Positions 36,786 to 58,671 of a DNA stretch of 64,000 nt are shown here, piece by piece. Position 1 is the stretch's first letter. The number at the start of each line of letters is the position of its first letter. The notes under the pieces are model-generated. The model was not told the origin of the DNA, ran no database searches, and saw only the letters and a list, made by a program, of their open reading frames with translations. The translations under genes were made by a program, and so were the position numbers. Origin of the DNA: Actinopolymorpha cephalotaxi (GTDB taxonomy: Bacteria; Actinomycetota; Actinomycetes; Propionibacteriales; Actinopolymorphaceae); assembly GCF_013408535.1 (NCBI RefSeq), contig NZ_JACBZA010000001.1, positions 3,432,850-3,496,849 on the forward strand, written 5' to 3'.

Positions 36786-36824
36786 GTCGGACCGCCTCTC
36801 TCGGCGCGTGTACGTGGAGTGAGC

Positions 36825-36839
36825 ATATCTGTCCTAGGT
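36825..36839 (-). promoter_or_regulatory. Predicted FadR-type operator, site A
   Basis: Minus-strand ACCTAGGACAGATAT; the 9-base core ACCTAGGAC spans 36831-36839 and overlaps the TAG stop of the preceding dehydrogenase gene. It lies just upstream of the regulator gene. The same core occurs before three other transcription units of the cluster. Confidence 0.55.
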
Positions 36840-37808
36840 CTTGACAACGGAAGGTTGCGGCGCGAGTTTGTCGAGCACCTCGAGGACGGCCAGCACATCC
36901 TCGGCCGATGGTTCCGGCTCGCGTCCCTGCCCCACCACTTCGAGGAAGTGGGCGTCCTGCGCGGCGACCGCCGCGCGTTCGGCGGCCGCGAGGTCCCCGC
37001 TGTCGACGAGCAGCTCCGCTCCGCGCCGGAGCCTGCCGTCGGCGATGACCAGTGTCTGCTCGGGCGAGATCAGGAGTACGTCGTTCACCGACTCGCGGGA
37101 GTGGTAGGACAGCGCCAGCGAGGCGAGCCGGCTGTCGCGGGTCCGCAGGACCGCCGCGACGTCCATCGGCCGGCCGTTGCCGTCCCACGGCTGTCCCACT
37201 CCCCCGTACACCGCCTCCGGTGAGTCGTCGAGCAGCCAGGCGGCGAGGTCGACCAGGTGGGCGGCGTGGTGCCAGAGAACGTCGTCCACCCAGTCTCGTG
37301 GGCGGCCGGTCCAGCCGACGTCACGCTGGCGCAGTTGCAGCCGCCTCGCGACCAGCTGGGTGATGGTCAGTTGCCCGGTGGAGACCAGCCGCCGAACCTC
37401 ACGGTGTGGCCGCATGAACCGCAGTGTGTGGGCCACCATGACCTGCCGGCCGTGGCGTTCGGCGGCTGCCACCACCTCCCGGCCGTCGGCGAGCGACGTC
37501 GCCAGCGGGACCTCGCACAGCACGTCGAGTCCGTGCTCGAGTGCTGTCAAGGTGTGCTTGACGTGCAGGTCGCTCGGAGACGCGACCACCACGGCGTCGA
37601 GACTTTCGGTACGCAACATCTGGTTGACATCGGTGTGCACGGCGCGGATTCCGTGCCGTGCCGCGAAGTCCTGCGTACTCGGCAGCGTGTGCCCGGCGAC
37701 GGCGGCCAGCGTCCCGCCGGCGGCACGGATCGCGTCGGCGTGCAGTTCGGCCACGGCGCCGGGGCCGATCAGGCCGATCCTGGGCGTGATCCGAGGTGTG
37801 GTGGTCAC
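36834..37808 (-). CDS. Gfo/Idh/MocA-family oxidoreductase without EKP lysine
   Basis: 324 aa from GTG 37808, which overlaps the amidohydrolase stop (GTGA). Rossmann start RIGLIGPGAVAELHADAIRAAGG. The segment that normally holds the catalytic E-K-P reads LCEVPLATSLADG, so Lys is replaced by Val. Of the four such genes in this operon it is the only one with the change, suggesting a different reaction or a regulatory/structural role. C-terminal domain contains DDVLWHHAAHLVDLAAWLL typical of the family. Confidence 0.87.
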   Translation of the reverse strand: MTTTPRITPRIGLIGPGAVAELHADAIRAAGGTLAAVAGHTLPSTQDFAARHGIRAVHTDVNQMLRTESLDAVVVASPSDLHVKHTLTALEHGLDVLCEVPLATSLADGREVVAAAERHGRQVMVAHTLRFMRPHREVRRLVSTGQLTITQLVARRLQLRQRDVGWTGRPRDWVDDVLWHHAAHLVDLAAWLLDDSPEAVYGGVGQPWDGNGRPMDVAAVLRTRDSRLASLALSYHSRESVNDVLLISPEQTLVIADGRLRRGAELLVDSGDLAAAERAAVAAQDAHFLEVVGQGREPEPSAEDVLAVLEVLDKLAPQPSVVKT

Positions 37809-38581
37809 GGCGCGCCCTCCAGGCCGAACACCGTGGCGGCGGTACGGCCGAGGATCCACTCGCGGTCGGCCTCGGTCAGGAAGTCCAGGTGTTCGGTGAC
37901 GTGCTCCACCGCCGCGTCGTACTCGTCATCGGTCGCCGTCCGGTCGCGGTTCCAGTCACCGCTCCACATGACGCGTTCCGGACCGTAGGCCGCCAGCGAC
38001 GCGCGGAGGTACGGCGTCGCGTCCGGGTAGGGGTGGCCGGCGCTGCTGTAGGCGTGGTAGCCCGACCACATGGTGCAGACCCCGGGCCGGTCGGCGAGCC
38101 GCAGGAACGCGTCGAAGCCGGCGTCGACGCCGTACCGGAAGAACCCCAGGTGCTCCATCCGCACCACGAGACCGGGCACCTCGTCGAGCAGTGCGGCGAA
38201 GTCAGGGTGCGCGATGTCGGCGAACGGCCCGCGGACGCTGGCCACCAGGTGGTTGCGGTCGAGGGCGCGCCAGACCGCGAGGGGGTCGGCGCCGGGTGAG
38301 CGGGTGGTGGCCCACAACCGCACGCCGGCGAAGCCCGCGGCCGCCAGCCGGTCCACCTGGTCCGGCGCGTCCGGACGCTCCGGGTCGACCATCCCGACCA
38401 GCGCGAACCGGCCGGGATGCCTGGTCCGACACTCGTGCAGGTAGCGGTTGTCGGTGTTGCCGACGTACTGCACGAGCACCGCCTGCCCGACCCCGGCACG
38501 GGTCATGGCCGTCAGACAGTCCTCGACCGGCGGGTACTTCTGCCGGCCGACGTGGACGTGCGCGTCGACGAGTCGCATCAT
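37805..38581 (-). CDS. Amidohydrolase-2 family TIM-barrel hydrolase, probable sugar lactonase
   Basis: 258 aa. Opens with the metal-binding DAHVHVG and ends with VMWSGDWNRD (conserved Asp) typical of amidohydrolase-related (COG3618-like) enzymes, a family that includes L-fuconolactonase and related sugar lactonases. Between dehydrogenase genes on both sides, overlapping both by start/stop, it is well placed to open the aldonolactone made by a dehydrogenase. The two ATGs at the start (38581, 38578) are equivalent. Confidence 0.8.
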   Translation of the reverse strand: MMRLVDAHVHVGRQKYPPVEDCLTAMTRAGVGQAVLVQYVGNTDNRYLHECRTRHPGRFALVGMVDPERPDAPDQVDRLAAAGFAGVRLWATTRSPGADPLAVWRALDRNHLVASVRGPFADIAHPDFAALLDEVPGLVVRMEHLGFFRYGVDAGFDAFLRLADRPGVCTMWSGYHAYSSAGHPYPDATPYLRASLAAYGPERVMWSGDWNRDRTATDDEYDAAVEHVTEHLDFLTEADREWILGRTAATVFGLEGAP

Positions 38582-39678
38582 TCGAGTGCTTTCACCGGGG
38601 TGGTCCACAGATCGATCGGCCGCTTCGCCGGACCGGGGTCGAACGGGAGCGTGACCCGCTGACCGATACCCGCCGACTGGTAACCGGCGTAGATCAGCTG
38701 GAGCGCGAGCCGCCCGTCCTCGCCGGTCGCCCGCGGCTGTTCGAGCCCGAGCACGCAGGCGCAGAAGTGGTCCATCTCCTGCGGGAAGCCGTAGTTCCAC
38801 AGCTCCTCGTAGATCGGATAGCTCCACCCCTTGGTGGACGGGGCCTTCTCCACCGCGTAGCCGTAGCCGTTCTCGGAGTACGTCGGCAGCGCGTTTCCCA
38901 TGTGCAGGTTGGCGTAGCTCACGCCCTCACTGCCGTAGACCTCGATGCGGTCGTCCATCCCGCCGAGCCGGGCCCAGCTGTTCTCCACGTGACCGATGGC
39001 GCCGTTGGCGAACTCGACGATGGCGAACGAGTGGTCCTCCGCGTTCGTCCTGTCCTTGTGGACGTAGGTGCCCATGTGCGCGGTGATCGCGGTCGGCTCG
39101 GGCCGGCCGAGGAACCAGTGACAGAACGACAGACCGTGGCAGCCCATGTCCATGAACACCCCGCCACCGGAGCGTTCGGTGTCCCAGAACCAGTCGCCGT
39201 GCGGGCCGGAGTGCATCTCCGACTGCTTCACCAGGAACACGTCGCCGAACGCGCCCTCCTCGGCCATCTGCTTGGCCTTGACGTACTTGGGGGTGAAGAA
39301 CAGTTCCTCGGCGTAGAACAGGTGCACCCCGGCGCTCGCGCAGGCGTCGATCATCCGGTCGCAGTCGGCGACCGTGAGGGCCATCGGCTTCTCCACGACG
39401 ACGTGCTTGCCCGCGCCGGCCGCGTCGATGGCCATCTGCGCGTGCAGGTGGTTGGGTGCGGCGATCACCACCAGGTCGACGTTCGGATCGTCGATGAGCT
39501 CGTGGTAGTCCAGGTAACTCTGCTCGACGTCGTGGCGGCGCGCGAGTTCGGCCGCGTTCCCGGGCGTGGGTGAGGCGACCGCCACCACCCGCCCGTGACG
39601 CCCCATGCCGACCGAGGCCGCGAGGGCCTCGGCCTCGAACTGCGAACCGATGATTCCGATGCCGACCTTGCCGGTCAT
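38578..39678 (-). CDS. Gfo/Idh/MocA-family dehydrogenase
   Basis: 366 aa. NAD(P)-binding GIGIIGSQFEAEALAASV and intact catalytic motif VVVEKPMALTVADC. C-terminal domain with GCHGLSFCHWFLGRPEP, the HxxD-like substrate region of the family. Overlaps the amidohydrolase start by ATGA. Likely oxidises a sugar or sugar derivative to a lactone or ketosugar, in step with the lactonase-like gene that follows. Confidence 0.88.
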   Translation of the reverse strand: MTGKVGIGIIGSQFEAEALAASVGMGRHGRVVAVASPTPGNAAELARRHDVEQSYLDYHELIDDPNVDLVVIAAPNHLHAQMAIDAAGAGKHVVVEKPMALTVADCDRMIDACASAGVHLFYAEELFFTPKYVKAKQMAEEGAFGDVFLVKQSEMHSGPHGDWFWDTERSGGGVFMDMGCHGLSFCHWFLGRPEPTAITAHMGTYVHKDRTNAEDHSFAIVEFANGAIGHVENSWARLGGMDDRIEVYGSEGVSYANLHMGNALPTYSENGYGYAVEKAPSTKGWSYPIYEELWNYGFPQEMDHFCACVLGLEQPRATGEDGRLALQLIYAGYQSAGIGQRVTLPFDPGPAKRPIDLWTTPVKALE

Positions 39679-39727
39679 GCTCGCTCCCTTGATGGGCTTC
39701 GACTGATGGCCTTCGACGATTCGGGGT

Positions 39728-40687
39728 TCATCCCTTGACCGACCCCACCAGCACGCCCTTCTTGAAGTGGCGCTGGATGAACGGGTACGCGACCAGGATG
39801 GGCACGATCGCGATCACCAGGATCGCCATCTGGATCGACTCCGGCGGCGGCGGTGCGTGCCCGGGGATGAACTTGAGGTTCAGCGAGTTCTGCTTCACCA
39901 CATAGGTGTTCAGGACGAGCTGCAGCGGCCACTTCGTGGTGTCGCTGATGTAGAGGAGTGCGGTGAAGAAGTTGTTCCAGTAGCCCACCGCCGAGAACAA
40001 CCCGACCACGGCGAGCACCGGCTTGGACAACGGCAGCACGATCCGCCAGAACGTCTGCAGCTCCCCCGCGCCGTCCACCCGTGCGGCGTCCAGGATCTCC
40101 TGCGGCAACTCCAGGAAGAAGGCACGCATGACGATGACGTTGAAGCCGTCCAGCATCACCGGCAGGAGCAGCGCCCAGTAGGAGTTGAGCAGTCCCAGCT
40201 CCTTCACCATCAGGTAGCTGGGGATGATGCCGGGAGAGAACAGCAGCGTGAACAGCACCATCAGTAGCACCGGCTTGTGCGCCAGCGTTCCCGGACGCGA
40301 CAGCGAGTAGGCGAGCAGCGACGTGCACGCCAGCGAGAGCGTCGTGCCCACCAGCGTGATGCAGATCGACACGAATGCCGAGTGCAGCACCACCGGGTTC
40401 TCGAACACCGTCGTGTAGGCCTGCAGGGTGGGATGGCTCGGCCAGAGCACGAACCCGCCCGACGCGTTGATCTGCTTCTCGTCGGCCAGGCTGGTCGCGA
40501 TCACCGAGATCAGCGGGATGATGATGACCGAGCAGCAGACGAACAGGAAGACGCCCTTGCTCGCGCGTGCCGTCGGTCCGGGCGGCGTGAGTCCCGGCGG
40601 ACCGGAGCGCCGCTTCCGCCCGGACGACCCCGGCCGGCTCAGGTCGCGGCGGCCGGCCGCGCGGGTGACGACGCGGTTGCTAGCCAT
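39728..40687 (-). CDS. Sugar ABC transporter permease (LplC/YtcP type)
   Basis: 319 aa with an Arg/Pro-rich N-terminal tail and six membrane spans from about residue 45 (KGVFLFVCCSVIIIPLISVIATS). EAA loop ILDAARVDGAGELQTFWRIVLP. LplC-type subunit of the CUT1 branch that imports complex oligosaccharides (pectin, alginate or rhamnogalacturonan fragments in known cases). Nine bases after the LplB-type gene. Confidence 0.92.
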   Translation of the reverse strand: MASNRVVTRAAGRRDLSRPGSSGRKRRSGPPGLTPPGPTARASKGVFLFVCCSVIIIPLISVIATSLADEKQINASGGFVLWPSHPTLQAYTTVFENPVVLHSAFVSICITLVGTTLSLACTSLLAYSLSRPGTLAHKPVLLMVLFTLLFSPGIIPSYLMVKELGLLNSYWALLLPVMLDGFNVIVMRAFFLELPQEILDAARVDGAGELQTFWRIVLPLSKPVLAVVGLFSAVGYWNNFFTALLYISDTTKWPLQLVLNTYVVKQNSLNLKFIPGHAPPPPESIQMAILVIAIVPILVAYPFIQRHFKKGVLVGSVKG

Positions 40688-40696
40688 GGTGGACCC

Positions 40697-41656
40697 TCAT
40701 CCCTCGTAGACCCCTCGTTCGCCGAACAGGTGGGCCACCTTGTTCGCACCGAGCACCAGCACCACGCCCAGCACGCCCTTGACCAACCCGACAGCTGTGG
40801 CCACGCCCCAGGCCCCGTCGAGTACGCCGTTGGTGTAGACGTAGGTGTCGAGCACCTGACTGGCATTGATGCCGACCGGACCCTGCTGCAGGACGATCTG
40901 CTCGAAGCCCACCGACAGCACGCTGCCCAGGCGCAGAATCAGCAGCAGGATGACGACACCCTTGATGCCGGGCAAGGTGATGTGCCAGATCTGCCGCAGC
41001 CGGGAGGCGCCGTCGACGGCGGCGGCCTCGTACAGGCTGATGTTGATCGCGGACAGCGCGGCCAGGAAGAGGATCATTGCCCAGCCGGTGTCCTTCCAGA
41101 TCACCTGGGAGGTGATCAGCCACTTGAACAGCTCGGGGTTGCCGATGATGTTCAGCGGATGCTCTCCCTGGGAACGCATCCAGTTGTTGAGGAGTCCGGC
41201 GCCGCCCAGAATGCTCTGGAACATCGCCACCACGACCACCCAGGACAGGAAGTGCGGTAGGTACAGCACCGACTGCACCGCCTGCTTGATGCGTTCGGAC
41301 AGCAGGCTGTTGAGCAACAGCGCCAGGCAGATCGGGGCCGGGAACACGAAGATCGTCTGGATGACGAAGATCTCCAGCGTGTTGACCAGCGCGTTGAGGA
41401 ACGCCGGATCGCCGTTGAAGACGACCGAGAAGTTCGACAGGCCGACCCACGGCGACTGCAGGATGCCGATGTAGGGCTGGTAGTCCTTGAACGCGATGAC
41501 GTTGCCCAGCAGCGGGATGTACTGGAACAACACCAGGAGAAGGAGGCCGGGCAGGCCGAAGGCGAGCAGCGGCCAGTCGCGGCGCAGGCGCGACTTCAGC
41601 GCCTGCTTCCTTCCGCCGCCGGTGGCGGGTCGCGGCGACGCGGTCAGTGTGCCCAT
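40697..41656 (-). CDS. Sugar ABC transporter permease (LplB type)
   Basis: 319 aa. The opening RRDWPLLAFGLPGLLLLVLFQYIPLLGNVIAFKDY is the LplB/YteP hallmark. EAA loop YEAAAVDGASRLRQIWHITLPG. Partner of the LplC-type permease; both use the LipO/LplA-type binding protein at the head of this operon. The start overlaps the isomerase-like gene by 13 bases. No ATPase gene here; a shared MsiK-like ATPase elsewhere is expected. Confidence 0.92.
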   Translation of the reverse strand: MGTLTASPRPATGGGRKQALKSRLRRDWPLLAFGLPGLLLLVLFQYIPLLGNVIAFKDYQPYIGILQSPWVGLSNFSVVFNGDPAFLNALVNTLEIFVIQTIFVFPAPICLALLLNSLLSERIKQAVQSVLYLPHFLSWVVVVAMFQSILGGAGLLNNWMRSQGEHPLNIIGNPELFKWLITSQVIWKDTGWAMILFLAALSAINISLYEAAAVDGASRLRQIWHITLPGIKGVVILLLILRLGSVLSVGFEQIVLQQGPVGINASQVLDTYVYTNGVLDGAWGVATAVGLVKGVLGVVLVLGANKVAHLFGERGVYEG

Positions 41657-42498
41657 CGGATCTCCGCCCACTCCGGGTGCTCGTCGAGCCGGCGCTCCAT
41701 GTCCCGAAGCGTCTCGATGTTGTGTCGCAGCTGGGTGTAGACGTCGCCACCGATGGAGAAGCCCTGGAAGCCGACCGGGCCCTGGTAGCCGACGCTGCGC
41801 AACAGTCCGAGCACGGCGAAGTTGTCCAGGCTGCCGCGGTCGATGGTCTCGATCGTGTAGCGCTCCTGGTCTCCGTTGACCACCAGGCTGCTCCCGCTCA
41901 GGTTCACCGACTGCAGGTAGGGCGCGGCGTCGGCGAGGCGGCCCCGCAGATCGGCCTGGTCCCCGGCGTACCAGTGCCAGCCGCAGAACACCACGCCCAG
42001 CCGGGGATGGTCGATGTGTCTCACCAGCTCGACCGCCTGGTCGACGCGGTGCAGCCACACCTTCGGCGAGTGCCGTACGTGGTGGTACAACGCGACCTGC
42101 AACTCGTTGCCGGCGGTGGCGTCGAGCAGCTCCTGCAGGGCGGCGGCCGCCGCCGGCGAGGCCGGATCGAAGTCCGCCTCGTCGCTGGAGTTGAGCGACA
42201 CCTCCAGCCGGGTGCCCGGCGGCAGCTCGGGAACGACCTCGAGGAACCTCGTGTGCCTGGGGGCGCGCTGCGCGAGATCGAGGACGCCGTGCACGGCGAC
42301 CGACCGCACGCCGTACGTGCCGGTGAGCTCCTTCAGGCGCGCCAGCTCGTCCCAGGCGTAGGCCAGGTCCGGCTCGCCGACGAGGATCTGGATGCCGTCG
42401 TAGCCCAGCTCGGCGAGCATGCCGAACCGCGCGTCCCAGCTGTAGTCGCCCAGCGACGTGCGGAAGTGCGTGTCCATCGCGAAGCAGGGTGTCCTCAT
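41644..42498 (-). CDS. Xylose-isomerase-like TIM-barrel sugar isomerase/epimerase
   Basis: 284 aa. Alpha/beta-barrel features of the AP-endonuclease-2/IolE-like family: FGMLAELGYDGIQILVGE, VALYHHVRHSPKVW, LGVVFCGWHWYAG, and a late GYQGPVGFQGF. His and Glu metal ligands typical of the family are scattered (HH in ALYHH, E in TIETID), though a full ligand set cannot be assigned by eye. Probably isomerises, epimerises or dehydrates the keto-sugar produced by the neighbouring dehydrogenases. ATGA overlap with the gene before. Confidence 0.82.
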   Translation of the reverse strand: MRTPCFAMDTHFRTSLGDYSWDARFGMLAELGYDGIQILVGEPDLAYAWDELARLKELTGTYGVRSVAVHGVLDLAQRAPRHTRFLEVVPELPPGTRLEVSLNSSDEADFDPASPAAAAALQELLDATAGNELQVALYHHVRHSPKVWLHRVDQAVELVRHIDHPRLGVVFCGWHWYAGDQADLRGRLADAAPYLQSVNLSGSSLVVNGDQERYTIETIDRGSLDNFAVLGLLRSVGYQGPVGFQGFSIGGDVYTQLRHNIETLRDMERRLDEHPEWAEIRWAH

Positions 42499-43640
42499 CG
42501 CACGCCTCCCGCGGTGGCCGTGGTGGCCGTGGTGGCCGCGCGCTCGACGCGCTGCGCCGTCCCGGTCGCCGCACAGTCGTAGATGGCCCGCAGGCACCCG
42601 AACACGAACAGCGCGTCCTCGGCCAGCAGCACGTCGGGGGCGGCGGCGACCTCTCCGCGTACGAGCCGGGAGAAGGACGCGAGCAGCTTGTGGGTGATGT
42701 CGTACGGCTTCTCCACGCCGGTCACCTCGATCTGGTCGGTGGCCGGCGCGCCGGCCTGATCCCGGCCGAGCGCGATCGTGGGCGGGCCGGCTCCGAAGAT
42801 TCCGGCCAGCCAGTCCCAGTGCGCGGACCCGTCCAGGCCGTCCAGCTCGGCTTCGCGCCGTTCGAGCCCGTGGGTGCAGGCGGCGTGTTCGTAGTCGACG
42901 TGCACCCGCTCGCCGCCGGCGAGCTCGTAGACCAGGGTGGCGCCCACCTGGGTCTCGACGTCGAAGACCGTGCCCGGTGGGAGGTTCAGCGCGGTGCGCG
43001 GGTTGGCCAGCCAGGCGTCGCGGACCTCGACGCTGACCGGCGCGAGCAGGTCGTCCAGCAGGGTGAGGTCGTACGGTCCCCAGTCCATCAGGATGCCGCC
43101 GCCGGTCCTGCTGCGGTCGAGGAACCACGGCGGGCTGTCGGAGTCGATGGCGGTGCGGGACCGCCGCTGCCGGTGCACGTAGCGCATCCGGTGCGGTGGC
43201 CCGAGCCGCGGGACGACGTCGCGCAGCGCGCGGGTGGTGGCGATGTCGCGGAAGCGGGCGGCGCAGTCGGCGAGGAGCAGACCCTTGGCCCGGGCGAGGC
43301 CGACCATGCTCTCCGCCTCGGCGAAGTCCTTGGCCAGCGGCTTCTCACACAGCACGTGCCGGCCGCTCTCCAGCGCCAGCGCGGTCATCGCCGCGTGCGC
43401 ATAAGGAGGGGTGGCCACGACCACGATGTCGTCGTCGCGGGCCGGCTCGGCCAGCATCGTCGCGGCGTCGGGATGGACGCGGGCCCCGGGGAACGACTCG
43501 GCGAAGGTGGCCCGGCTCCCCGGGTCGGGGTCCGCGACCGACAGGGCGACCGGCACGGGGAGCTTGCCCGCCACGGTGGCGTGCAGGCGGGCGATCTGGC
43601 CCGCACCGACGAGGTAGATCCGCTGCTCCGCTTGGGTCAT
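42495..43640 (-). CDS. Gfo/Idh/MocA-family dehydrogenase
   Basis: 381 aa. Rossmann segment RIYLVGAGQIARLHATVAG, intact motif HVLCEKPLAKDFAEAESM, and C-terminal DSPPWFLDRSRTGGGILMDWGPYDLTLLDDLL. Coupled by ATGA to the TIM-barrel gene after it and by a one-base TGATG overlap to the dehydrogenase before it, so two dehydrogenases and an isomerase are made together. The C-terminus ends in an Ala/Thr-rich tail (RVERAATTATTATAGG) of low complexity. Confidence 0.87.
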   Translation of the reverse strand: MTQAEQRIYLVGAGQIARLHATVAGKLPVPVALSVADPDPGSRATFAESFPGARVHPDAATMLAEPARDDDIVVVATPPYAHAAMTALALESGRHVLCEKPLAKDFAEAESMVGLARAKGLLLADCAARFRDIATTRALRDVVPRLGPPHRMRYVHRQRRSRTAIDSDSPPWFLDRSRTGGGILMDWGPYDLTLLDDLLAPVSVEVRDAWLANPRTALNLPPGTVFDVETQVGATLVYELAGGERVHVDYEHAACTHGLERREAELDGLDGSAHWDWLAGIFGAGPPTIALGRDQAGAPATDQIEVTGVEKPYDITHKLLASFSRLVRGEVAAAPDVLLAEDALFVFGCLRAIYDCAATGTAQRVERAATTATTATAGGVR

Positions 43641-44758
43641 CAGGTCGTTCCTTCCAGAGATTGCTTTCCTGCGTTGCCGAGCGCCGCGATGTCCTCGAGC
43701 CGTACCGGCCGGCCCTCGTCGCTGGACAGTTCGGCCGCGGCGCAGACGAACATCGTCTGCAACGCGTCGTCCGGGGCAATGCTCGGCGGACGTCCGTCGC
43801 GCACCCGCCGGACCACGTCCCGGGCCTGCTCGGTCGTGTTGTGCAGGTAGGTGTGGTCGTCGGCCAGCGCCCAGGTGAGCTGCTCGACCAGCGAGCTGTC
43901 CAGGCCCCGCCGGGTTTCCTCGAACGCCCAGCGTTTGATGGACCGGCCGAAGATGTCGGTCTCGGCGGCACCCTTGGTGCCCTGGACGAGGTAACGCAGC
44001 TCGTGGCCGTCACCGCGTTGCTGGGTGAGCATGTCCTGCAAGGGGTCGAGGTCGGTGGTGGTGGACGCCAGCGCCATCAGGAACGACAGGTGGCCCACCG
44101 CCCCGGTGCCGAACCGGCAGGTGGTCTGGTAGTTGTCCCGGACCTGGAAGTACGGCACGGCGTTCGGCGCCGACGCGGAGTAGACCTCGGTCACCTCCGA
44201 ACCGGTCCACCAGCGCGGCAGATCGACGTAGTGCGACAGCTTCTCGCCGAACATCCCGCCGGAGGTCGCCTGGGTGCGCCAGCTGTCCCGCCCCCAGAAC
44301 TCACCGGGGACGTAGGTGCAGTTGACGGCGAGGACGTCGCCGAGCAGCCCTTCGTCGATCCACTGTTTCACCGTGGTGTAGAGGCGGGAGTAGCGCAGCT
44401 CGAAACCGACCTGCAGGAAGCCTGCGGTCTCGTGCGCGGTGCGCGCCATCGCCGCCGCGTCCTCCAACCGGGCCGCCATCGGCTTCTCGCACATCACCGC
44501 CTTGCCGGCCGCCAGCGCGGCCAGGGAGAGCTCGGCGTGCGCGTCGTTGGACGCGGTGACGAACACCACCCGCACCTGCGGGTCGTCCAGCACGCGGCGC
44601 AGCTCGGTGGTGACCTCGATCGGGTAGCGGGCGGCGAGTTCCGCGGTCCGCTCGGCGCGCACGTCGTACGCGATCAGACCGGTCAGGATCGGATCGTCGA
44701 GCAGGTGCCCGATGACCGTCTCCCCCATCCGGCCCGCTCCGAGAATCGCTGCCTTCAT
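43640..44758 (-). CDS. Gfo/Idh/MocA-family dehydrogenase
   Basis: 372 aa. KAAILGAGRMGETVIGHLL binds the cofactor; AVMCEKPMAARLEDA carries the catalytic Lys; GGMFGEKLSHYVDLPRWWTG is the substrate-domain His/Asp motif. Overlaps the stop of the GH38-like gene by ATGA (44755-44758), linking it to that hydrolase's product. Substrate probably the monosaccharide freed by the hydrolase. Confidence 0.88.
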   Translation of the reverse strand: MKAAILGAGRMGETVIGHLLDDPILTGLIAYDVRAERTAELAARYPIEVTTELRRVLDDPQVRVVFVTASNDAHAELSLAALAAGKAVMCEKPMAARLEDAAAMARTAHETAGFLQVGFELRYSRLYTTVKQWIDEGLLGDVLAVNCTYVPGEFWGRDSWRTQATSGGMFGEKLSHYVDLPRWWTGSEVTEVYSASAPNAVPYFQVRDNYQTTCRFGTGAVGHLSFLMALASTTTDLDPLQDMLTQQRGDGHELRYLVQGTKGAAETDIFGRSIKRWAFEETRRGLDSSLVEQLTWALADDHTYLHNTTEQARDVVRRVRDGRPPSIAPDDALQTMFVCAAAELSSDEGRPVRLEDIAALGNAGKQSLEGTT

Positions 44759-49930: not shown

Positions 49931-50124
49931 GGAGTTCTCCTCGTGCCGAAACCAGTCAGCTTGGATTCACTCGTCTCGAGGATCCGGCCCACGATCGGCC
50001 GGTGACCGAGACGCCCCCGGTTGGCGTGCGATGTCGAAGGTGGCGTCACCGGCTGCGCCGGCGACGCGTTCCGCTCTGCTGCTCCTGCCTGCATCCAGTC
50101 ACGGATGTTTCAGGAGCATCTGAG

Positions 50125-50139
50125 ACATAGGTCCTAACT
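50125..50139 (+). promoter_or_regulatory. Predicted FadR-type operator, site B
   Basis: ACATAGGTCCTAACT contains the perfect 9-base dyad TAGGTCCTA (50128-50136) and the core ACATAGGTC. It lies in the 259-base gap ahead of the 12-gene operon, 195 bases upstream of the binding-protein start, which would imply a long leader. Confidence 0.5.
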
Positions 50140-50189
50140 AAAGCACTCGTCGATCACGTCCGCAAGACTGTCGCGAGTCGTCCATCGGA

Positions 50190-51062
50190 TCAGTTGAAGG
50201 TGCCCGGCGTGACCGCGTCGGCGAGCAGTTGCGTGCCGTCCGCGCCGTGCCGCCCGGCCAGCGCCGTGGCGCTCGCCTGCACGTGCGCGGTGCCGGCCAA
50301 CTCGAGCCGGAGCTCGCGTGCCTCGTCGAGGGCGAGGTTCAGATCCTTCAGCAGGTGGCCGAGCTTGAACCCGGGCGCGGCGTCACCGACAGCGAGCTTG
50401 CCCCAGAGGAACGCGGTCAGCGGTGAGCCGGCCGCTCCTGCCTGCAGGGACTGGAGAACCCGGCCGAGGTCCAGCCCACCGGCGCCGGCCAGGGCGAACG
50501 CCTCGCAGGTCGCCTGGGTGACCCCGGCGACGAGCACCTGGTTGACCAGCTTCGCCAGTTGCCCCGCGCCGGCCGGGCCGTGGTGCACGACCGTGGCGCC
50601 CACGCAGTCCAGGATCGGGCGGATGTGGCCGACGGGTACCTCGTCGCCACCGACCATCACCGACAGCTGACCGCTCTCGGCGCCGAAGGGTCCGCCGCTG
50701 ACCGGCGCGTCGAGGACCGTCACGTCCCGCGCGGCCCCGGCCTCGGCCAGCTCCCGGGCGAGGGCCGGCGAGGAGGTGGTCATGTCGACGCAGACCGTGC
50801 CGGGTTCGGCGTGCGCGAGGATCCCGCCCTCGCCGAGGTAGACCTCGCGTACCTCGGCGGGCGTCGGCAGCACGGTCACCACGACGTCGGCGCCCGCGGC
50901 CACGTCGCCTACCTGGTCACGAACCTCGGCTCCGGACGTGGCGAGGGACGCGACCGCCTCGGCCCCTCGTCGCAGGACCGCGACCTGGTGTCCGGCCTCG
51001 AGCACCCGCCGGCACATCGGCAGGCCCATCAGGCCGATGCCGATCCATCCCACACGCACCAT
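50190..51062 (-). CDS. Beta-hydroxyacid dehydrogenase (HIBADH / tartronate-semialdehyde-reductase-like)
   Basis: 290 aa from ATG 51062. Rossmann VGWIGIGLMGLPMCRR, substrate motif DAPVSGGPFGAESGQL (118-132) and the catalytic Lys 171/Asn 174 of GQLAKLVNQVLVAG are intact. Such enzymes reduce or oxidise C3-C4 hydroxyacids, e.g. tartronate semialdehyde to glycerate, the kind of product an aldolase of 2-keto-3-deoxy acids releases. It is a single-gene unit facing the aldolase/dehydratase operon, with operator site C directly at its start. Confidence 0.9.
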   Translation of the reverse strand: MVRVGWIGIGLMGLPMCRRVLEAGHQVAVLRRGAEAVASLATSGAEVRDQVGDVAAGADVVVTVLPTPAEVREVYLGEGGILAHAEPGTVCVDMTTSSPALARELAEAGAARDVTVLDAPVSGGPFGAESGQLSVMVGGDEVPVGHIRPILDCVGATVVHHGPAGAGQLAKLVNQVLVAGVTQATCEAFALAGAGGLDLGRVLQSLQAGAAGSPLTAFLWGKLAVGDAAPGFKLGHLLKDLNLALDEARELRLELAGTAHVQASATALAGRHGADGTQLLADAVTPGTFN

Positions 51063-51069
51063 GCACCTC

Positions 51070-51084
51070 ACAACTGACCTAGGT
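51070..51084 (-). promoter_or_regulatory. Predicted FadR-type operator, site C
   Basis: Minus-strand ACCTAGGTCAGTTGT; core ACCTAGGTC at 51076-51084 with the perfect 8-base palindrome ACCTAGGT (51077-51084). Only 15 bases before the hydroxyacid-dehydrogenase ATG, so binding would block transcription or initiation. Confidence 0.55.
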
Positions 51085-51312
51085 TGGACCCGCCAGAGGG
51101 CAGGCCGAGAATGTCTGCGAGCCGGCGCTGGGTGAGCCACGACATTACCCGGCCTCGCCCCGTCGGTGCGGCGTGGGTCCCGTCATGTTCGCGGCAACGA
51201 AAGTGGCAGAAGTTCGTCGCCAGACAGTAGAACCGGGCCCGGTTAGTGTCAACGAGCCCACTGGCGCTCCGCCACGTTGACCGACCTTGCGCAAGATCCT
51301 TGCTCTCCGGCC

Positions 51313-51327
51313 ACCTAGGACTTAGGT
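51313..51327 (+). promoter_or_regulatory. Predicted FadR-type operator, site D
   Basis: ACCTAGGACTTAGGT is a 15-base imperfect dyad (arms ACCTA/TAGGT perfect) with the core ACCTAGGAC. It lies 32 bases upstream of the aldolase GTG and ahead of its GGGAGG ribosome site. It is the most symmetric of the five sites. Confidence 0.6.
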
Positions 51328-51358
51328 TGCTTGTCCGAAGGTTAGGGAGGTACGTCTG

Positions 51359-52363
51359 GTGGTCTCGTCTGAGAATCGCGCACCGACTTCCGGTGCACCG
51401 CCGTCCGGTCCGCCCCGCGACCAGGAGTCGTGGGGCGGAGTCATGCCGGCGGTGCTCACCATGTTCGACGCCGACGGCGCGTTGGACGAGGTGGCCACGG
51501 CCGAGCACATCGAGCGGCTGGTGAGCGAGGGCGTGCACGGCGTCGTGGTCGGCGGGACCAGCGGGGAGTTCATCGGGCTCTCCCCCGCGGAACGCGATCG
51601 GCTGGTCCAGGTCGCGGTGAGGACGGTGCGGGGCCGGGTGCCGGTCGTCGCGGGCACCGGCGCGTACGCCACCCAGGAGACGATCGAGCTCACCCGGGCC
51701 GCCGCCGGCCGCGGTGCCGACGGCGCGATCGTGATCCTTCCGTACTTCCAGAAGCCCACCCGGGACGAGGTGATGCGGCACCTGCGTTCCGTCGGTGCGG
51801 CGTCCCCGATCCCGGTGATGGCGTACAACAACCCGGCGAACTCCGGTGCGCCGGAGCTGCGGGCCGCCGACCTGGCCGCGCTGTTCGGTGACGGCGCGAT
51901 CACGGCGGTGAAGAGCACCTTCCCCAGCGTCCACCAGGTGCACGAGGCGCGGGCGGCGGTGCCGGACGAGGCGTTCCGGATCCTCTACGGCAGCTTCACC
52001 GCACCTCTGGAGGCGCTCGCCGGCGGCGCGGACGGCTGGATCAGCGGCATCCTCAACGTCGTCGCCGCCGACGCTCTCGCACTGTTCGACGCCATCGGCC
52101 GCGCGGACCTGGCGGCCGCCCGGCAGGCCTGGGCACGCATCCTGCCGATCAGGCGGCTGTACACCGAGCAACTGCTCGGACCGGTGGGCGACCTGGCCAT
52201 CTACCGCGGGATTCTCAGGCTGCGCGGCCTGCCCGGCGGGCACTGCCGGGCACCCCTGCTGGACCTGACCCCATCGCAGGAGGAACGCCTCGCGGAGATT
52301 CTCGACGCGAGTGACAAGCCGGAGAAACTGGCGGCCACGGCCGCGCCTGGGAGGCACACATGA
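51359..52363 (+). CDS. DapA-family aldolase (2-keto-3-deoxy-sugar-acid aldolase-like)
   Basis: 334 aa. The NAL/DapA barrel is complete: GGTSGEFIGLS (65-75) binds the keto-acid carboxylate, Tyr 156 (VMAYNNPA) and Schiff-base Lys 185 (TAVKSTFP). In a locus with an enolase-superfamily acid dehydratase, translationally coupled by ATGA overlap, the likely role is cleavage of a 2-keto-3-deoxyaldonate rather than lysine synthesis. GTG has GGGAGG eight bases upstream. A ~25-residue N-terminal tail precedes the barrel. Confidence 0.9.
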   Translation: MVSSENRAPTSGAPPSGPPRDQESWGGVMPAVLTMFDADGALDEVATAEHIERLVSEGVHGVVVGGTSGEFIGLSPAERDRLVQVAVRTVRGRVPVVAGTGAYATQETIELTRAAAGRGADGAIVILPYFQKPTRDEVMRHLRSVGAASPIPVMAYNNPANSGAPELRAADLAALFGDGAITAVKSTFPSVHQVHEARAAVPDEAFRILYGSFTAPLEALAGGADGWISGILNVVAADALALFDAIGRADLAAARQAWARILPIRRLYTEQLLGPVGDLAIYRGILRLRGLPGGHCRAPLLDLTPSQEERLAEILDASDKPEKLAATAAPGRHT

Positions 52364-53535
52364 AGGTGACAGGGGTCCGGCAGTGGATTGCCGAGTTCGG
52401 CTACTACAACGCGATCTACGTACAGGTGGAGACCGACGACGGTGTGGTCGGCCAGGCCGAGGTGGCGATGCGCCGGCGCACCCGCACGGTCGCCGCGCTG
52501 ATCGAGGAGCTCGGCGAGTACCTCGTCGGTGAGGACCCGACCCGGATCGAGGCGCACTTCGAGCGGATGTACCGCGACTCGTTCCTGGGCGGCACGCTGC
52601 TCACGATCGGCATCGCGGCGCTGGACATGGCGCTGTGGGACCTCAACGCCCGCAGTCTCGGCGTACCCGTGCACCGGCTGCTGGGCGGGAAGTTTCGCGA
52701 CGCCGTCCCGGTCTACACCCACGCCCGGGCCACCGAGAGCCCCGAGACGTTCGCGGCAGAGGTGAAGGACCGGGTGGACAAGGGTTTCACCGCTGTCAAG
52801 ACGACCTTGCCCGGGTTCTACTCGCAGGTGACCAGCGTGCACCACAAGGTGCCGGCCTCGATCCCGGCCCGGACGACCGAGACCGAGCTGCTCCCCACCT
52901 CCATCTGGCAGCGGGTCGGCGAGTACTTCCAGGCCGCCCGGGAGGCGGTCGGCCCGGACGTGCACCTGATGCTGGACTGCCACGGCCGGCTCAACGTCGC
53001 GAACGCCGTACGGCTGTGTGAGGAGCTGGCGCCGTACCAGCTCACGTTCATCGAGGAGCCCACCCCGCCCGAGCGACCGGACTGGCTGGCCGAGGTCACC
53101 CGCCGCTCCACCACCCCGATCGCCTCCGGCGAGCGGTGGGCCGGTCCCTACGGCTCCGCGCCGTTCCTCGAACAGCACGCGCTGTCGATCGTGCAGCCCG
53201 ACGTCGCGTTCTGCGGCGGCATCACGGCGGCCAAGCGGATCGCGACGGTGGCCGAGACGCACGGGATATCGGTCGCGTTCCACAACCCGTTCGGCCCGCT
53301 CACCAGCGCCGCGACCTGGCACCTCGCGGCCACCCTGCCCAACTTCATGATCTCGGAGTCCATGCTGACGCCGGCGCAGCTGAAGTTCTGGGACCGCTAC
53401 GCCGAGAATCCGCCCAAGGTGGAGAACGGCATGTGGCAGGTGACCGACGATCCCGGGCTGGGCCCGCGGCTGCGCATCGACGAGATCGTCCGGCACCCGT
53501 TCAGGCCGGAGTACGATCGCGGCGGAACGAGGTAG
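52360..53535 (+). CDS. Enolase-superfamily sugar-acid dehydratase (MR/MLE, galactonate-dehydratase-like)
   Basis: 391 aa. Metal ligands Asp 206 (LMLDCHG), Glu 232 (IEEPTPP) and Glu 258 (ASGERW) plus His 308 (FHNPFGP) and Asp 281 (VQPDVAF) are those of the mannonate/galactonate dehydratase branch. It dehydrates an aldonate to the 2-keto-3-deoxy acid for the coupled aldolase. The precise acid cannot be decided: the ~30-residue insert between 150 and 180 (VHHKVPASIPARTTETELLP) differs from classical DgoD loops. Confidence 0.88.
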   Translation: MKVTGVRQWIAEFGYYNAIYVQVETDDGVVGQAEVAMRRRTRTVAALIEELGEYLVGEDPTRIEAHFERMYRDSFLGGTLLTIGIAALDMALWDLNARSLGVPVHRLLGGKFRDAVPVYTHARATESPETFAAEVKDRVDKGFTAVKTTLPGFYSQVTSVHHKVPASIPARTTETELLPTSIWQRVGEYFQAAREAVGPDVHLMLDCHGRLNVANAVRLCEELAPYQLTFIEEPTPPERPDWLAEVTRRSTTPIASGERWAGPYGSAPFLEQHALSIVQPDVAFCGGITAAKRIATVAETHGISVAFHNPFGPLTSAATWHLAATLPNFMISESMLTPAQLKFWDRYAENPPKVENGMWQVTDDPGLGPRLRIDEIVRHPFRPEYDRGGTR

Positions 53536-53544
53536 GCACTCTTC

Positions 53545-56376
53545 ATGGACGTCACGCCGGACCCGCCCGGTGCGGCCGCTGCCGCTGCCGCACCGGGCGC
53601 GGTCACCGGTGGCGCGCTGTCGGCCCACGACTACGACCCGGTGTCGGACGCCGCTGTCAGCTGGCGGTTGACACCGGGTACGTCGGTCACCCAGCAGATC
53701 ACCGTGCCACTCGGAGTCGTGCCGGCCCGGGTGGCGGTCAAGCTGCGCCGCGTCGAAGGCACCGGTCCCCTGCACTACCGGCTCGGCAGCGCCTGGGGCC
53801 GCGCCGACCTCGCCGAAGGTGTCATCGCCGCGGAGGACGTCGGCCCGTGGTTCGAGCGGTGGACCTGGATCGAGCTGCCGCCGAACCCTTCGGCGCCGGC
53901 CGGTGGCGAGCTGTATCTCCAGGTCCAGCTCGCCGCGGCGGACTCCGGCGGCTACGAGTGGTTCGGCACCGCGACCGTGCTGCCCGACCGGCCGGAGGTA
54001 CGCATCCACTTCGGCTACGCACCCGGCTGGTCGGAGGTCGAGAACGCGGAGCCGCCGACGTTCGAGAACCCGATGAACCTGGACTACGGCACCACCACGC
54101 CCTCCTACGGTGGCGGGATGGTGCTCGACCAGGACGCCGCGCCGGTCACCGGCCTCAGCCTCGCGTTCCGGGTCGAGGGAGCAGGTGGTCACCCGGCTGT
54201 AGGCGAGGAGCGGTTCGCGTTCGCCGACCAGCTCACCGGGCCGCTGTTCACCCGTTCGGTGCGACGGCGCGACGTCGTACCCACCGACGGTGAGATCGCG
54301 CTCGACGACGGCTGGGCGGCGCCGAGCGCACCGAGCGCACCGAGCACACCGGGCACATCTAGCGCACCGGACGCCGGATCGCTGGTGGGCAGGGCGGTCG
54401 CGGAGTTCGGCGACTTCCTGCGGATCGCGATGGAATGCCCATTGCGTGGCGGCAAACCGTTCCGGCTGGCGGTCGATCCCACCGCGGACCTGCCCGGCGC
54501 CGAGGCGTTCGAGCTGGACGTGACCGAGCAGGCCGTCACCCTCACCGCCGGCACCGAGCTCGGACTCATGCGTGGCCTGCACTATGCCGAGGCACTGATG
54601 CGGCTGCGGCGCGCGCCGATCCTCCCGCTCGGGCGGCACGTCCGCAGCCCGCGGTGGACGGACCGGATCACGTGTGCGCCGTTCGGAACCCGGCGCGAGC
54701 TCACCGGCTCCGCCGACGCCTACAGCGACGAGGTGCTGGCCCGGATCTCCCGCGCCGGCTGCAACGGCATCTGGATCCTGGCGGAGCTGGAGGAGCTCGG
54801 CCACTCCGCCGTCTATCCCGAGCTCAACGACGGCGTCGCCGAACGTCAGCAACGTCTCGCAGATCTGGTGGACCGCGCGGCGAGGTACGGCATCCGCGTT
54901 CATGTGTACCTGGAAAGCCACCCGCAGCCGGACGAGTTCTTCGAACGCCATCCCGGCGTCCGTGGCTCGACGTTCGAGGCGTACGGCGGTACCGCGGTCT
55001 GCTGCGCCGCGGTTCCCGAAGTACAGCAGCACATCCGCTCCGGCATCACCGACCTGGTGACCGCGGTGCCGCTGCTGGGCTCACTCGTCCTCAACATCGG
55101 CGGCGAGGGATTCCTGCACTGCCACACGCGGATCGACGACTGCCCGCGCTGCCGGTCCCACCCGGCGGCCGACGTCGTGGCCCGGCTGGTGGCCATGATC
55201 ACCGAAGCGGCCCACGCGGCCGACCCGGCGGTCACCGTCGCCGCCTGGCCCTACAGCGCGACCAACTGGTGGTCGGCGGCCGACCCGACGCAGTCCCGGC
55301 TCATCCCGCGACTTCCCTCGGACACCACGCTGCTCACCGAGTTCGCCAAGGAGGGCCGGGTCTCCGTCGGCGCACAGTCCATCCCGGCGTACGACTATCC
55401 GATCAGCATCCTGGGTCCCTCCGACCGGTTCGCCACGCAGCACGATCTCGCGCGGCGACACGGGTTGCGGCTGTGGACCAAGACCGAGCACGCGATCGCG
55501 CTCGAGTTCATCACCACTCCGTACATCCCGGCCTTCGCGCAGTGGGTCGAACGCTACAACCGGATCGCGGCCCTGCCGCACACCTCCGGTGTCATGGTCA
55601 ACTGGATGCACTACGGCTTCCTACCCAGCCGCGCAGGCGACCTGCTCCACTGGGCGGTCTGGGACGGCCCGCACGATCCGGACACGCTGCTGCGGCGCAT
55701 CGCCGTCCGCGACTTCGGTGCCGCGGCCGCCGACCGCGTCCTGGATGCCTGGCAGCTGTTCAGCCAGGCGATCCGGGAGTATCCACTGTCCAGTCCGATG
55801 GCGCTCGGGCCGATCCAGTCCGGCCCGGCCCACCCGCTGTTCCTCGACCCCGCCTACCAGCCCTGGCACGGTGCCCAGCGGCAGTTCCACAACGACCTGT
55901 CCTGGACCGAGCCGTGGGGACCGCAAGCCACGCTTGCGCAGTTGCGCCGGCTGGCCGAACCCTGGGCTCGCGGCGTCGCGGAGCTACGAGCCGCCACCGG
56001 CCTGGTGGCCACCGGGGATCGGGTCGACCTCGACCGCGAGATCGGCGTCGCCGTCAGCCTGCTCGCCTGCGTGCACAGCGCCATCCACGTCGGGGAGTTC
56101 TACCTGGCAAGGGCGCGGCTCGCCGAGGCGACCGAGGGTCCGCAGCGTCACGCGGTCGTCGACGAGCTGACCCGGATCGCCGAGGCCGAGCGGGCCAACT
56201 GCACGGAGGTTCTCCCCTATCTGCGTGCAGACTCCCGCCTCGGCTACGCCAACTCCGCCGACAGCAACCAGCAGGGTGTCCCCCGTGGCGGGCTGTTCGG
56301 CCCGGGGAGTGTCACGAAGAAGCTGGCCCACCTCGACCGGCTTCTTCGTGACGACCTCCCGGCCCTGTGCCGTTGA
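53545..56376 (+). CDS. Unclassified glycoside hydrolase with GH20/GH67-type architecture
   Basis: 943 aa, no signal peptide. Residues ~40-260 are beta-rich accessory domain(s). A Ser/Ala/Pro linker (about 258-275) is encoded by 9-base tandem repeats. Residues ~290-350 (FELDVTEQAVTLTAGTELGLMRGLHYAEALMRL) look like the small alpha/beta domain preceding GH20 and GH67 catalytic barrels. The barrel (~370-750) has GCNGIWILAELEELG, RVHVYLESHPQP, LVLNIGGEGFLHCH, a Cys pair DCPRC, and TKTEHAIALEF. Candidate acids are the Glu of GGEG and of TKTEHA. I cannot place it in a CAZy family by eye. Ten bases after the dehydratase gene, hence in the same operon. Confidence 0.7.
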   Translation: MDVTPDPPGAAAAAAAPGAVTGGALSAHDYDPVSDAAVSWRLTPGTSVTQQITVPLGVVPARVAVKLRRVEGTGPLHYRLGSAWGRADLAEGVIAAEDVGPWFERWTWIELPPNPSAPAGGELYLQVQLAAADSGGYEWFGTATVLPDRPEVRIHFGYAPGWSEVENAEPPTFENPMNLDYGTTTPSYGGGMVLDQDAAPVTGLSLAFRVEGAGGHPAVGEERFAFADQLTGPLFTRSVRRRDVVPTDGEIALDDGWAAPSAPSAPSTPGTSSAPDAGSLVGRAVAEFGDFLRIAMECPLRGGKPFRLAVDPTADLPGAEAFELDVTEQAVTLTAGTELGLMRGLHYAEALMRLRRAPILPLGRHVRSPRWTDRITCAPFGTRRELTGSADAYSDEVLARISRAGCNGIWILAELEELGHSAVYPELNDGVAERQQRLADLVDRAARYGIRVHVYLESHPQPDEFFERHPGVRGSTFEAYGGTAVCCAAVPEVQQHIRSGITDLVTAVPLLGSLVLNIGGEGFLHCHTRIDDCPRCRSHPAADVVARLVAMITEAAHAADPAVTVAAWPYSATNWWSAADPTQSRLIPRLPSDTTLLTEFAKEGRVSVGAQSIPAYDYPISILGPSDRFATQHDLARRHGLRLWTKTEHAIALEFITTPYIPAFAQWVERYNRIAALPHTSGVMVNWMHYGFLPSRAGDLLHWAVWDGPHDPDTLLRRIAVRDFGAAAADRVLDAWQLFSQAIREYPLSSPMALGPIQSGPAHPLFLDPAYQPWHGAQRQFHNDLSWTEPWGPQATLAQLRRLAEPWARGVAELRAATGLVATGDRVDLDREIGVAVSLLACVHSAIHVGEFYLARARLAEATEGPQRHAVVDELTRIAEAERANCTEVLPYLRADSRLGYANSADSNQQGVPRGGLFGPGSVTKKLAHLDRLLRDDLPALCR

Positions 56377-56419: not shown

Positions 56420-56436
56420 TGGGCAGCCCGGCCCGG

Positions 56437-58611
56437 TCAGCCCTTGTGCTGCTCGGGGTTGGACCAGAACATCGCCTCCGGGTCGTACACCGCCGGCGTC
56501 GGGTGGATCGACGGGGCGGTGAACCCGCCCTGGGCGAGGTTCTCCTTACGGGGAACGTTCTTCAGGTCCTTGTGGACGAGTACGACCTCGGGCGCGTTCG
56601 ACACCGAGCCCTGGAAGAACGGCCCCTCCTTGATGTGGATCTTCGTGATCTCCCACACCAGTCGGTGCCGTGCCAGCTCGTCGGCCTCGGTCTTGCTCTT
56701 GTCGTACAGCTTCCAGAGGCGATCGACCGGCCCGCCCGGCTCGGGCGCCATCCGGGGCGGTGTCCGCTTGTACGGGTCGACGTTCTCTTCCGTACCTTCC
56801 TCGGGAGTGCCTCGTACGTTGTAGTACTGGCCCTCCAGCGGCGCCCACCTGCTCGGCTCCAGCGGCACCAGCCACTGCGGGTAGACCAGGCAGTTCGGGC
56901 CGTCACCGACACCCCAGCCCGAGTTCGACATCAGCTTGCCGTCGTTCCACTCGGTGCCGTAGGCCTCGGGCGCGATGGGGTACTGACGGGCGTCGAGCCC
57001 GATCGCCTTCCAGTCCCGCTCCAGCAGGTCGTTGTTCTTCCTGTACTGGCTGCCGACGTCGGAGCCGTACTGCAGCCGGATGATCAGTTTGCTGCCGTCC
57101 GGCGCCTCCCGCTTGCCGTCGCCGTCCTTGTCCACCACGCCGAGCTCGTCCAGCAGGGCCTTGGCCTTCTCCGGGTCGTACTTCACGTAGCTGTCGCGCC
57201 ACTGCTGGTAGATCTGCTCGCCCTGGTCGCTGACGTGGTACTCGATCGCCTTGACGCTCATCGTGCCGGTGGTCTTCTGGCCGGTGTTGAAGTAGATCGA
57301 CTTCTGGGCGTCGTCGCGGTTGGTGGCGTGTGAGAGCGCCTGCCGGAACTTCGGCTCGCGGATGAGCTTGCGAATGTTCTCCTCGTAGTAGTCGTAGTTG
57401 AAGAACACGGCCGCGCCCGTGCCGTCGCCGGTGTCCCACAGGATAGGCTCGACCTTGCTCTTCGCTTGCGCGGACTTCAGCCCCGAGATGTCGCTCAGCA
57501 CCACGCCCATGAACGAGCCGACGAGGAAGTCGAGCTTGCCCTGCTGGATCTGCAGCTTGGCGACCTCGGTGTTCTGCACGGCGCTGGCCGTGAGCGTGTC
57601 GATGAAGGGAAGCTGGTTGCCCTGCCGGTCGACGCACCAGTAGTAGGGGTTGCGTTCCCAGGTGACCTGGCGGCCTTCCTTGTACGACTTCAGCCGCCAG
57701 CCGGTCATGGTCGGATTGTCCGGGTTGGTCTGCCAGTTGCGCTTCTTCTCGAACTCGCCGTCGGCGGTGGCCCAGTTCTTGTCCACGGACGGGTTGTACT
57801 TCGGGTGGAACTGCTTGAGGTAGTGCTTCGGCTCCATCCACGTGGGGCCGGCACCACGCTTGACCCGCATGGCGAGCCGGTCCGCGGTGAGCGGTGCGGG
57901 TGCGTCGAACTTCATCTCGATCGTGTAGTCGTCGGGCGCGGTCATCTTCATGACCGTGCCCTTGCCCGACTTCGCCTCGTCCGGCGGAACCTCCGAGTGC
58001 TCCTTGTTGAGGATCATGTCCTCCCACCAGAACATCACGTCCGCGGTGGTCCACGGCTGGCCGTCGGACCACTTCAACCCCTTGCGGAAGTGCAGCGTCC
58101 ACAAGGATGCGTCGGCGTTGGCCTCCCAGCTCTCCACCAGACCCGGTCCGATGTCGAGGCCGTCGTTGAGCCAGCGCAACGGGGAGTGGCCGTACATGTA
58201 CTGCTTCAACTGGCCGTCGTCGGTGGCAGGCAGCATCAACCGCAGGTCGCCGCCGTACTTGCCCGAGTCCAGCCAGTTGTGCGGAACGACGTAGGGCTTG
58301 TCCGGCAGCCGCTTCTCCACCGGTGGCAGCGTGCCCTGTTTCACCTGCGCGGCAAGCGAGGGTGCCTCCTTGAACGACGCCGGGGCCGCGAGCGGCTTAC
58401 GTGCCGACCCCTTGCGATTCGGGCTTCCGGATGACGTCGTCCCCTTCTTCGGCCCCGCCTGCTCACCCGAGCCGGAACTGCAGGCACCGACGGTGAAGAC
58501 CGCCGCCACGACACCGGACCGGTACAGGAGCGCCCGGCGCGTCAGACCTTCCCGCTGGCTACCGGCTGGAATGTCCTGGGTCGCCGGCCGACGGACCATG
58601 CGTATCACCAC
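56437..58611 (-). CDS. Orphan ABC substrate-binding lipoprotein, family 5 (paralogue of 32707)
   Basis: 724 aa, GTG-GTG start like its paralogue, with an ATG four codons on (58599). Tat motif (LTRRALLYRS); the expected lipobox reads FTVGAC. The oversize family-5 body is nearly collinear with the 32707-34875 protein (ARKPLAAPASFKEAPSLAAQ, YMYGHSPLRWLNDGLDIGPG in both). No permease genes are adjacent. A one-mismatch copy of the cluster motif lies at 58657-58671 just downstream of the likely transcription start, so unlike its paralogue it may belong to the FadR-type regulon. It probably captures an oligosaccharide of the same polymer. Confidence 0.9.
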   Translation of the reverse strand: MVIRMVRRPATQDIPAGSQREGLTRRALLYRSGVVAAVFTVGACSSGSGEQAGPKKGTTSSGSPNRKGSARKPLAAPASFKEAPSLAAQVKQGTLPPVEKRLPDKPYVVPHNWLDSGKYGGDLRLMLPATDDGQLKQYMYGHSPLRWLNDGLDIGPGLVESWEANADASLWTLHFRKGLKWSDGQPWTTADVMFWWEDMILNKEHSEVPPDEAKSGKGTVMKMTAPDDYTIEMKFDAPAPLTADRLAMRVKRGAGPTWMEPKHYLKQFHPKYNPSVDKNWATADGEFEKKRNWQTNPDNPTMTGWRLKSYKEGRQVTWERNPYYWCVDRQGNQLPFIDTLTASAVQNTEVAKLQIQQGKLDFLVGSFMGVVLSDISGLKSAQAKSKVEPILWDTGDGTGAAVFFNYDYYEENIRKLIREPKFRQALSHATNRDDAQKSIYFNTGQKTTGTMSVKAIEYHVSDQGEQIYQQWRDSYVKYDPEKAKALLDELGVVDKDGDGKREAPDGSKLIIRLQYGSDVGSQYRKNNDLLERDWKAIGLDARQYPIAPEAYGTEWNDGKLMSNSGWGVGDGPNCLVYPQWLVPLEPSRWAPLEGQYYNVRGTPEEGTEENVDPYKRTPPRMAPEPGGPVDRLWKLYDKSKTEADELARHRLVWEITKIHIKEGPFFQGSVSNAPEVVLVHKDLKNVPRKENLAQGGFTAPSIHPTPAVYDPEAMFWSNPEQHKG

Positions 58612-58656
58612 CCGTTCTCGTTGGTGCGGATCGAGGCCGCTGAAGTCAAAGTTCTG

Positions 58657-58671
58657 ACAAAGGTCTTACCT
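58657..58671 (+). promoter_or_regulatory. Possible FadR-type operator, site E (one mismatch)
   Basis: ACAAAGGTCTTACCT fits the composite ACnTAGGnCnTAnnT at all fixed positions but one. It lies 46 bases upstream of the binding-protein start and just downstream of its -10-like TATTCT (58682-58687). Confidence 0.4.

Follow-up and report, generated by a model that had tools for sequence, protein, structure and literature searches.

A short CTAG-containing motif recurs before several units of a catabolic gene cluster of Actinopolymorpha cephalotaxi, and the question raised by this locus is whether the motif marks the regulon of the GntR/FCD regulator encoded in the same cluster (36030-36785). The DNA was analysed as a window of 64,000 nucleotides, by which the whole stretch is meant. 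Computation gives the regulon reading good support: the five places concerned are in all likelihood operators of the local regulator, which would act as a repressor, and its binding at the boxes is very probably to be expected. The sites, their conservation, their link with the regulator's clade and, in some relatives, their overlap with promoters were computed, and from the sequences we infer binding, repression, effector and substrate. In this way a motif picked out by inspection has led to a testable regulon common to three actinobacterial genera, with one switch that would be tied to an uncharacterised sugar-acid pathway (dehydrogenases, lactonase-like hydrolase, dehydratase, aldolase, reductase, transporter and hydrolases). 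The switch is of an ordinary bacterial kind; its binding sequence is unusual.

The dyad and its places in the window

The preliminary description was built on a 9-base core, ACMTAGGWC, and its four exact copies lie where they were reported (36831-36839 (-), 50125-50133 (+), 51076-51084 (-) and 51313-51321 (+)), with no others in the window; the fifth, one-mismatch copy before the binding protein was also recovered, at 58657-58665 (ACAAAGGTC). The proposed dyad symmetry held, but the core as unit had to be given up, being one CCTAGG-like box plus flank. The full motif is a 13-bp dyad, CCTAGG-N-CCTAGG, with boxes at a 7-bp pitch and frequently a third box; such third boxes show enrichment: at 7 bp a mean of 2.30 of 6 bases match in the worse flank, vs 0.33-1.26 at offsets 8-15. 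The site consensus is nnnACCTAGGnCCTAGGTnnn. Perfect places for ACNTAGGNCNTANNT, among the matches listed on the forward strand, are 50125 and 51313, and the 51314 site is the only one-mismatch match in the genome to CCTAGGWCCTAGG, which has no perfect match there.

A symmetric 21-bp matrix was derived from 23 sites in relatives' loci only (L009, L054-L057 and L059), leaving out L058 and L060-L063, of the same genus and with near-identical sites. Scanned over the window, it returned the five places of the preliminary description as the five best distinct places (Table 1), in the order 50126, 51314, 36833, 58658 and 51071, with the overlapping registers at 36826 and 50119 ranking ahead of 51071 and the next place scoring 5.2. 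Six of 21 gene starts in the region score above 2.3; these are the five predicted starts plus that of an ABC gene, which has the 58658 site in common with one of them. The TIM-barrel gene was omitted from this count because its start is ambiguous. By score alone the 51071 and 58658 sites are weak, the former lying within the chance range of a 64-kb scan and the latter being outscored by one other place of the genome (10.7), and their assignment draws on position and orthology.

Table 1. Genes and candidate operators of the cluster (window positions)
Feature	Position	Strand	Basis or remark
Leftward gene run (binding protein, GH38-like, oxidoreductases, TIM-barrel protein, two permeases, lactonase-like amidohydrolase, regulator, CN-hydrolase)	35085..49930	-	ORFs and Pfam; gene spacing suggests one transcript
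GntR/FCD regulator, 251 aa, proposed binder	36030..36785	-	Pfam GntR 1.5e-14, FCD 2e-20
Candidate operator before regulator gene	36833..36845		matrix 11.7; overlapping register 36826-36838, 9.2
Candidate operator before leftward run	50126..50138		matrix 22.2, best of window; 195 bp from first start codon
3-Hydroxyisobutyrate/tartronate-semialdehyde reductase-like dehydrogenase	50190..51062	-	Pfam and NCBIfam, below equivalog cut-offs; start proposed
Candidate operator before dehydrogenase	51071..51083		matrix 6.4, weak alone
Candidate operator before aldolase-dehydratase genes	51314..51326		matrix 19.1
DHDPS-family aldolase	51359..52363	+	Pfam 2.4e-51
Enolase-superfamily sugar-acid dehydratase	52360..53535	+	Pfam MR_MLE
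943-aa protein, third gene after the 51314 operator	53545..56376	+	no Pfam or NCBIfam match
Solute-binding protein, SBP_bac_5 type	56437..58611	-	Pfam 9.6e-57
Candidate operator before binding protein	58658..58670		matrix 9.6; just past TATTCT element

Two of the places needed adjustment. The site reported before the FadR-type gene is indeed there, within the 48-bp gap that precedes the regulator, but it does not head a separate unit, being internal to the leftward run; it contains the TAG stop codon of the adjacent upstream gene (36834-37859). A core had also been described 15 bases from the dehydrogenase start, whereas the listed ORF, running to 51140, covers the site. The Pfam domain starts only at residue 29, and from the in-frame ATG at 51062, proposed here as the start, the core lies 14 bases upstream; the orthologues in L009 and L054 have sites at most 100 bp upstream.

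Going by what is known of the enzyme families, the gene set, comprising oxidoreductases, a lactonase-like amidohydrolase, a dehydratase, an aldolase and a reductase, points to a route in which a sugar is oxidised to its acid, the acid is dehydrated and the product undergoes aldol cleavage. For the dehydratase and the aldolase several substrate specificities match, all below cut-off, the best NCBIfam model of the dehydratase being galactonate dehydratase (274.6 bits vs a cut-off of 311). The 943-aa protein had no Pfam or NCBIfam match, an unconvincing best E of 0.53 in the PDB and no relation by BLASTP to the DUF4838 protein of L009. The binding protein at 56437-58611 has a duplicate at 32707-34875 (82% identical), and the pair flanks the cluster. 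Both upstream regions carry TC(T/C)CTATTCTTCTCG, followed by a CCTAGG-like box only before 58611; the same spot of the other copy scores -4.0. With a candidate operator after the common TATTCT in one of them, the duplicates form a natural promoter comparison.

Promoters, effector and the predicted switch

In the mechanism proposed, a regulator dimer would recognise pairs of CCTAGG-like boxes at the 7-bp pitch, frequently accompanied by a weaker third one. At the transport/hydrolase run, the dehydrogenase, the aldolase-dehydratase genes and the binding protein, bound regulator would cover the promoter or sit just past it; it would also bind before its own gene, and all bound units would be repressed. 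When the sugar is present, a pathway carboxylate (sugar acid or 2-keto-3-deoxy acid) would enter the metal-holding FCD pocket, and the regulator would then release the DNA. In the regulator, D165, H169, H217 and H239 align with the NanR zinc ligands D172, H176, H222 and H244, and R121 with the carboxylate-binding Arg128, for which reason a metal-held carboxylate is the likely effector.

The arrangement of dimers might also be different. We tentatively consider, while doubting it, that the self-complementary CCTAGG units form an array with one dimer on each, two to three dimers binding cooperatively as in NanR, for which several dimers side by side, joined via an N-terminal extension, are described (PMC8012715, accessible part). 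About 29 residues precede the HTH of the present regulator. Were the array true, a distinct class of operators in the FadR subfamily would be defined by the helix S[QM]RVVRDALR together with the G-[KR]-R-A wing, and box number and quality would tune repression.

Under either arrangement of dimers, the direction of control is suggested by promoters in relatives. A -35/-10 pair lies within 45 bp of five of the 27 site clusters vs 0.16 expected, a value that may be low for intergenic DNA, the null having been drawn from whole loci that are mostly coding; no such pair was found near the remaining 22. Both L056 sites fall inside a spacer of 17 bp, with TTGACA as the -35 and TAAGTT or TATGTT as the -10, while at the other three readable promoters the hexamer starts 11-15 bases past the -10. 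Because the boxes sit in the spacer or just past the -10, repression is suggested. Four of the five readable promoters face a gene, with DUF4838-type starts in L009 and L054 and amidohydrolase-like ones (named by eye) in L055 and L056; the fifth, at L056 10464, faces away from the regulator and towards no ORF reaching 80 aa in the next 300 bases. The five window sites have no consensus -35/-10 pair, and none occurs in 49900-51400. That the FCD regulator binds the boxes and activates, as CitO does, appears improbable: CitO is an activator of the FadR subfamily, and activation by some members is also discussed in PMC6608401 (accessible part), but the boxes lie upstream of the -35 at none of the readable promoters, and the 58658 box comes after the -10-like TATTCT common to both duplicates.

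The predicted repressor joins a GntR winged HTH to an FCD domain, both above the Pfam cut-off, which is the architecture of the FadR subfamily. With that subfamily it also shares a local catabolic regulon and a site before the regulator gene, and its extra boxes, 10.5 nt from the site centre, fall within the 7-12 nt surveyed (PMC4494728, accessible part). The survey consensus is GT-N3-AC (or N2) within TKGT/ACMA, unlike the present CCTAGG-N-CCTAGG, which is without GT-N2/3-AC (PMC4494728, accessible part). The GT-N2/3-AC pattern is common rather than strictly defining, NanR and BioR being known exceptions, and an operator that departs from it bears on the prediction of operators from recognition helices. 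Escherichia coli NanR provides the best NCBIfam model and the second PDB match of the present regulator, and the two have in common a G-x-R-A wing, Asp/His/His/His ligands, repeated boxes and their departure from the consensus (PMC8012715, accessible part). Assignment to the NanR family nevertheless fails, the score being 119.6 bits vs a cut-off of 260 and the GGTATA repeat operator, which in NanR serves sialic-acid genes, being replaced by CCTAGG boxes (PMC8012715, accessible part). Streptomyces coelicolor HypR is likewise an FCD regulator and autorepressor of a small actinobacterial catabolic regulon, whose own site covers the -10; it differs in its motif, CTNTGC(A/C)ATGTCAC, and in its hydroxyproline genes (PMC6608401, accessible part). 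Among the matches listed from open-licence literature there was no GntR regulator with CCTAGG-type sites, and the accessible part of PMC5425828 gives no operator.

Relatives and the regulator clade

Conservation in relatives, to which the preliminary description had looked for a check, is strong, the sites recurring ahead of orthologous genes as well as of the regulator gene. Among the named genomes scanned, one close regulator was met, that of Phytoactinopolyspora alkaliphila (L009, 61% identity). Its locus of 20.7 kb contains seven sites, including two perfect CCTAGG-W-CCTAGG; they lie close to the starts of the dehydrogenase, pectate-lyase-like, dehydratase-aldolase-regulator, oxidoreductase and DUF4838 genes. 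Of 394 genomes sampled across the class, 11, counting the present one, encode a close regulator (E up to 1e-30); they fall into 3 of 138 genera. The two other genera belong to one family; Phytoactinopolyspora is one of them, and the second we take to be, probably, Jiangella. The sequence CCTAGAACCTAGGACTTAGG, three boxes at the 7-bp pitch, stands between regulator and divergent dehydratase in all seven genomes with 42-44% identical regulators.

That the boxes are a true operator of another pathway regulator encoded elsewhere, with the FCD protein a bystander, we regard as very improbable. The loci were fetched via the FCD regulator, whose presence is therefore by construction, but the motif lies directly upstream of this gene throughout the clade. 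The best matrix score in the 400 bp upstream of the regulator is 9.0-25.8 in 11 of 11 clade loci, a partly circular result in that six of these (L043-L046, L048 and L053) come from matrix-source genomes, L044 being the same genome as L009, and L047 and L049-L052, outside those genomes, are yet close relatives. Upstream of 31-36% identical paralogues the motif is absent, the matrix score staying at or below 4.0 in all 29 loci. Of the 394 genomes, 10 encode a close dehydratase (E up to 1e-110), and each of these also encodes a close regulator; the eleventh genome with the regulator, G316, gave no close dehydratase. Both regulator copies of G316 (48-51%) keep the motif, which thus follows the regulator rather than the dehydratase. 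Finally, Pfam scanning of the window ORFs from 32.7 to 64 kb gave no other DNA-binding family.

All 12 regulators compared carry the same recognition helix, S[QM]RVVRDALR. The fourth metal-binding His is absent in seven of them (L057-L063, with a V or I region instead), the recognition helix being kept. In five congeners no close regulator was seen among 18 scored candidates per genome (best E 4.1e-17). The distribution is thus patchy for the cluster (35085-58611), two genera of another family having a close regulator, and transfer or loss is possible.

Rarity and background

CTAG, described beforehand as generally rare, proved so in the window, with 12 occurrences vs 184 expected from base composition or 51 from a second-order model, and all three CCTAGG hexamers of the window lie inside proposed sites. 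One-mismatch copies of ACMTAGGWC are by themselves unremarkable: at up to one mismatch there are 32 places in the window vs 25.7 expected, with 16 of 100 shuffles as high. Four exact copies within 14.5 kb are remarkable, because the 6.86-Mb genome has only 26 strand matches (13 + 13), these four included; the reversed-pattern control gave 63 + 67. CNTARGNCYTA has six strand matches genome-wide, at four distinct places, two of them in the cluster.

In 100 first-order Markov sequences the best matrix score averaged 10.3 (maximum 18.8), and 0, 0, 1, 2, 0 and 0 of them reached the real ranks 1-6. Equally good matches elsewhere had been named beforehand as a reason to abandon the regulon; outside the cluster, 119,920 bases of the same genome, 86,920 of them picked for motif-like matches, held 0, 0, 0, 1 and 5 places that reach the respective scores of the five sites, taken in rank order. 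Neither this check nor that of conservation in relatives refutes the regulon. Since the relatives' sites had first been located with the motif of the preliminary description, dyads were also searched de novo, leaving the window aside, in 52,275 bases of approximately intergenic DNA from relatives, with 4096 hexamers at 11 spacings (0-10). CCTAGG-N1-CCTAGG ranked first, with 23 spacing-1 dyads vs 0.3 expected (z 24.3), the intergenic mask being rough, with coding DNA remaining in L009, L055 and L056, and triple boxes being counted repeatedly; over whole loci codon bias was dominant and CCTAGG did not show. That a pattern-seeking reader met a rare tetranucleotide a few times by chance can be dismissed: one-mismatch copies, being as common in shuffles, would fit it, but the genome count of ACMTAGGWC, the matrix scan, the background outside the cluster, the de novo dyads and conservation in two other genera speak against it.

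The regulon in its own genome was followed with patterns and one weak model, a search that leaves room for weak sites elsewhere; genome-wide, the model returned only the 51313 place (E 2.9). Eighteen stretches around the remaining 22 exact strand matches of ACMTAGGWC, with two more at the other CNTARGNCYTA places, scored at most 10.7, under the three best window sites and over 58658 and 51071. The best motif-like place among these fetched stretches, at genome position 6481885 (L082), may be a distant member of the regulon or a site of another regulator.
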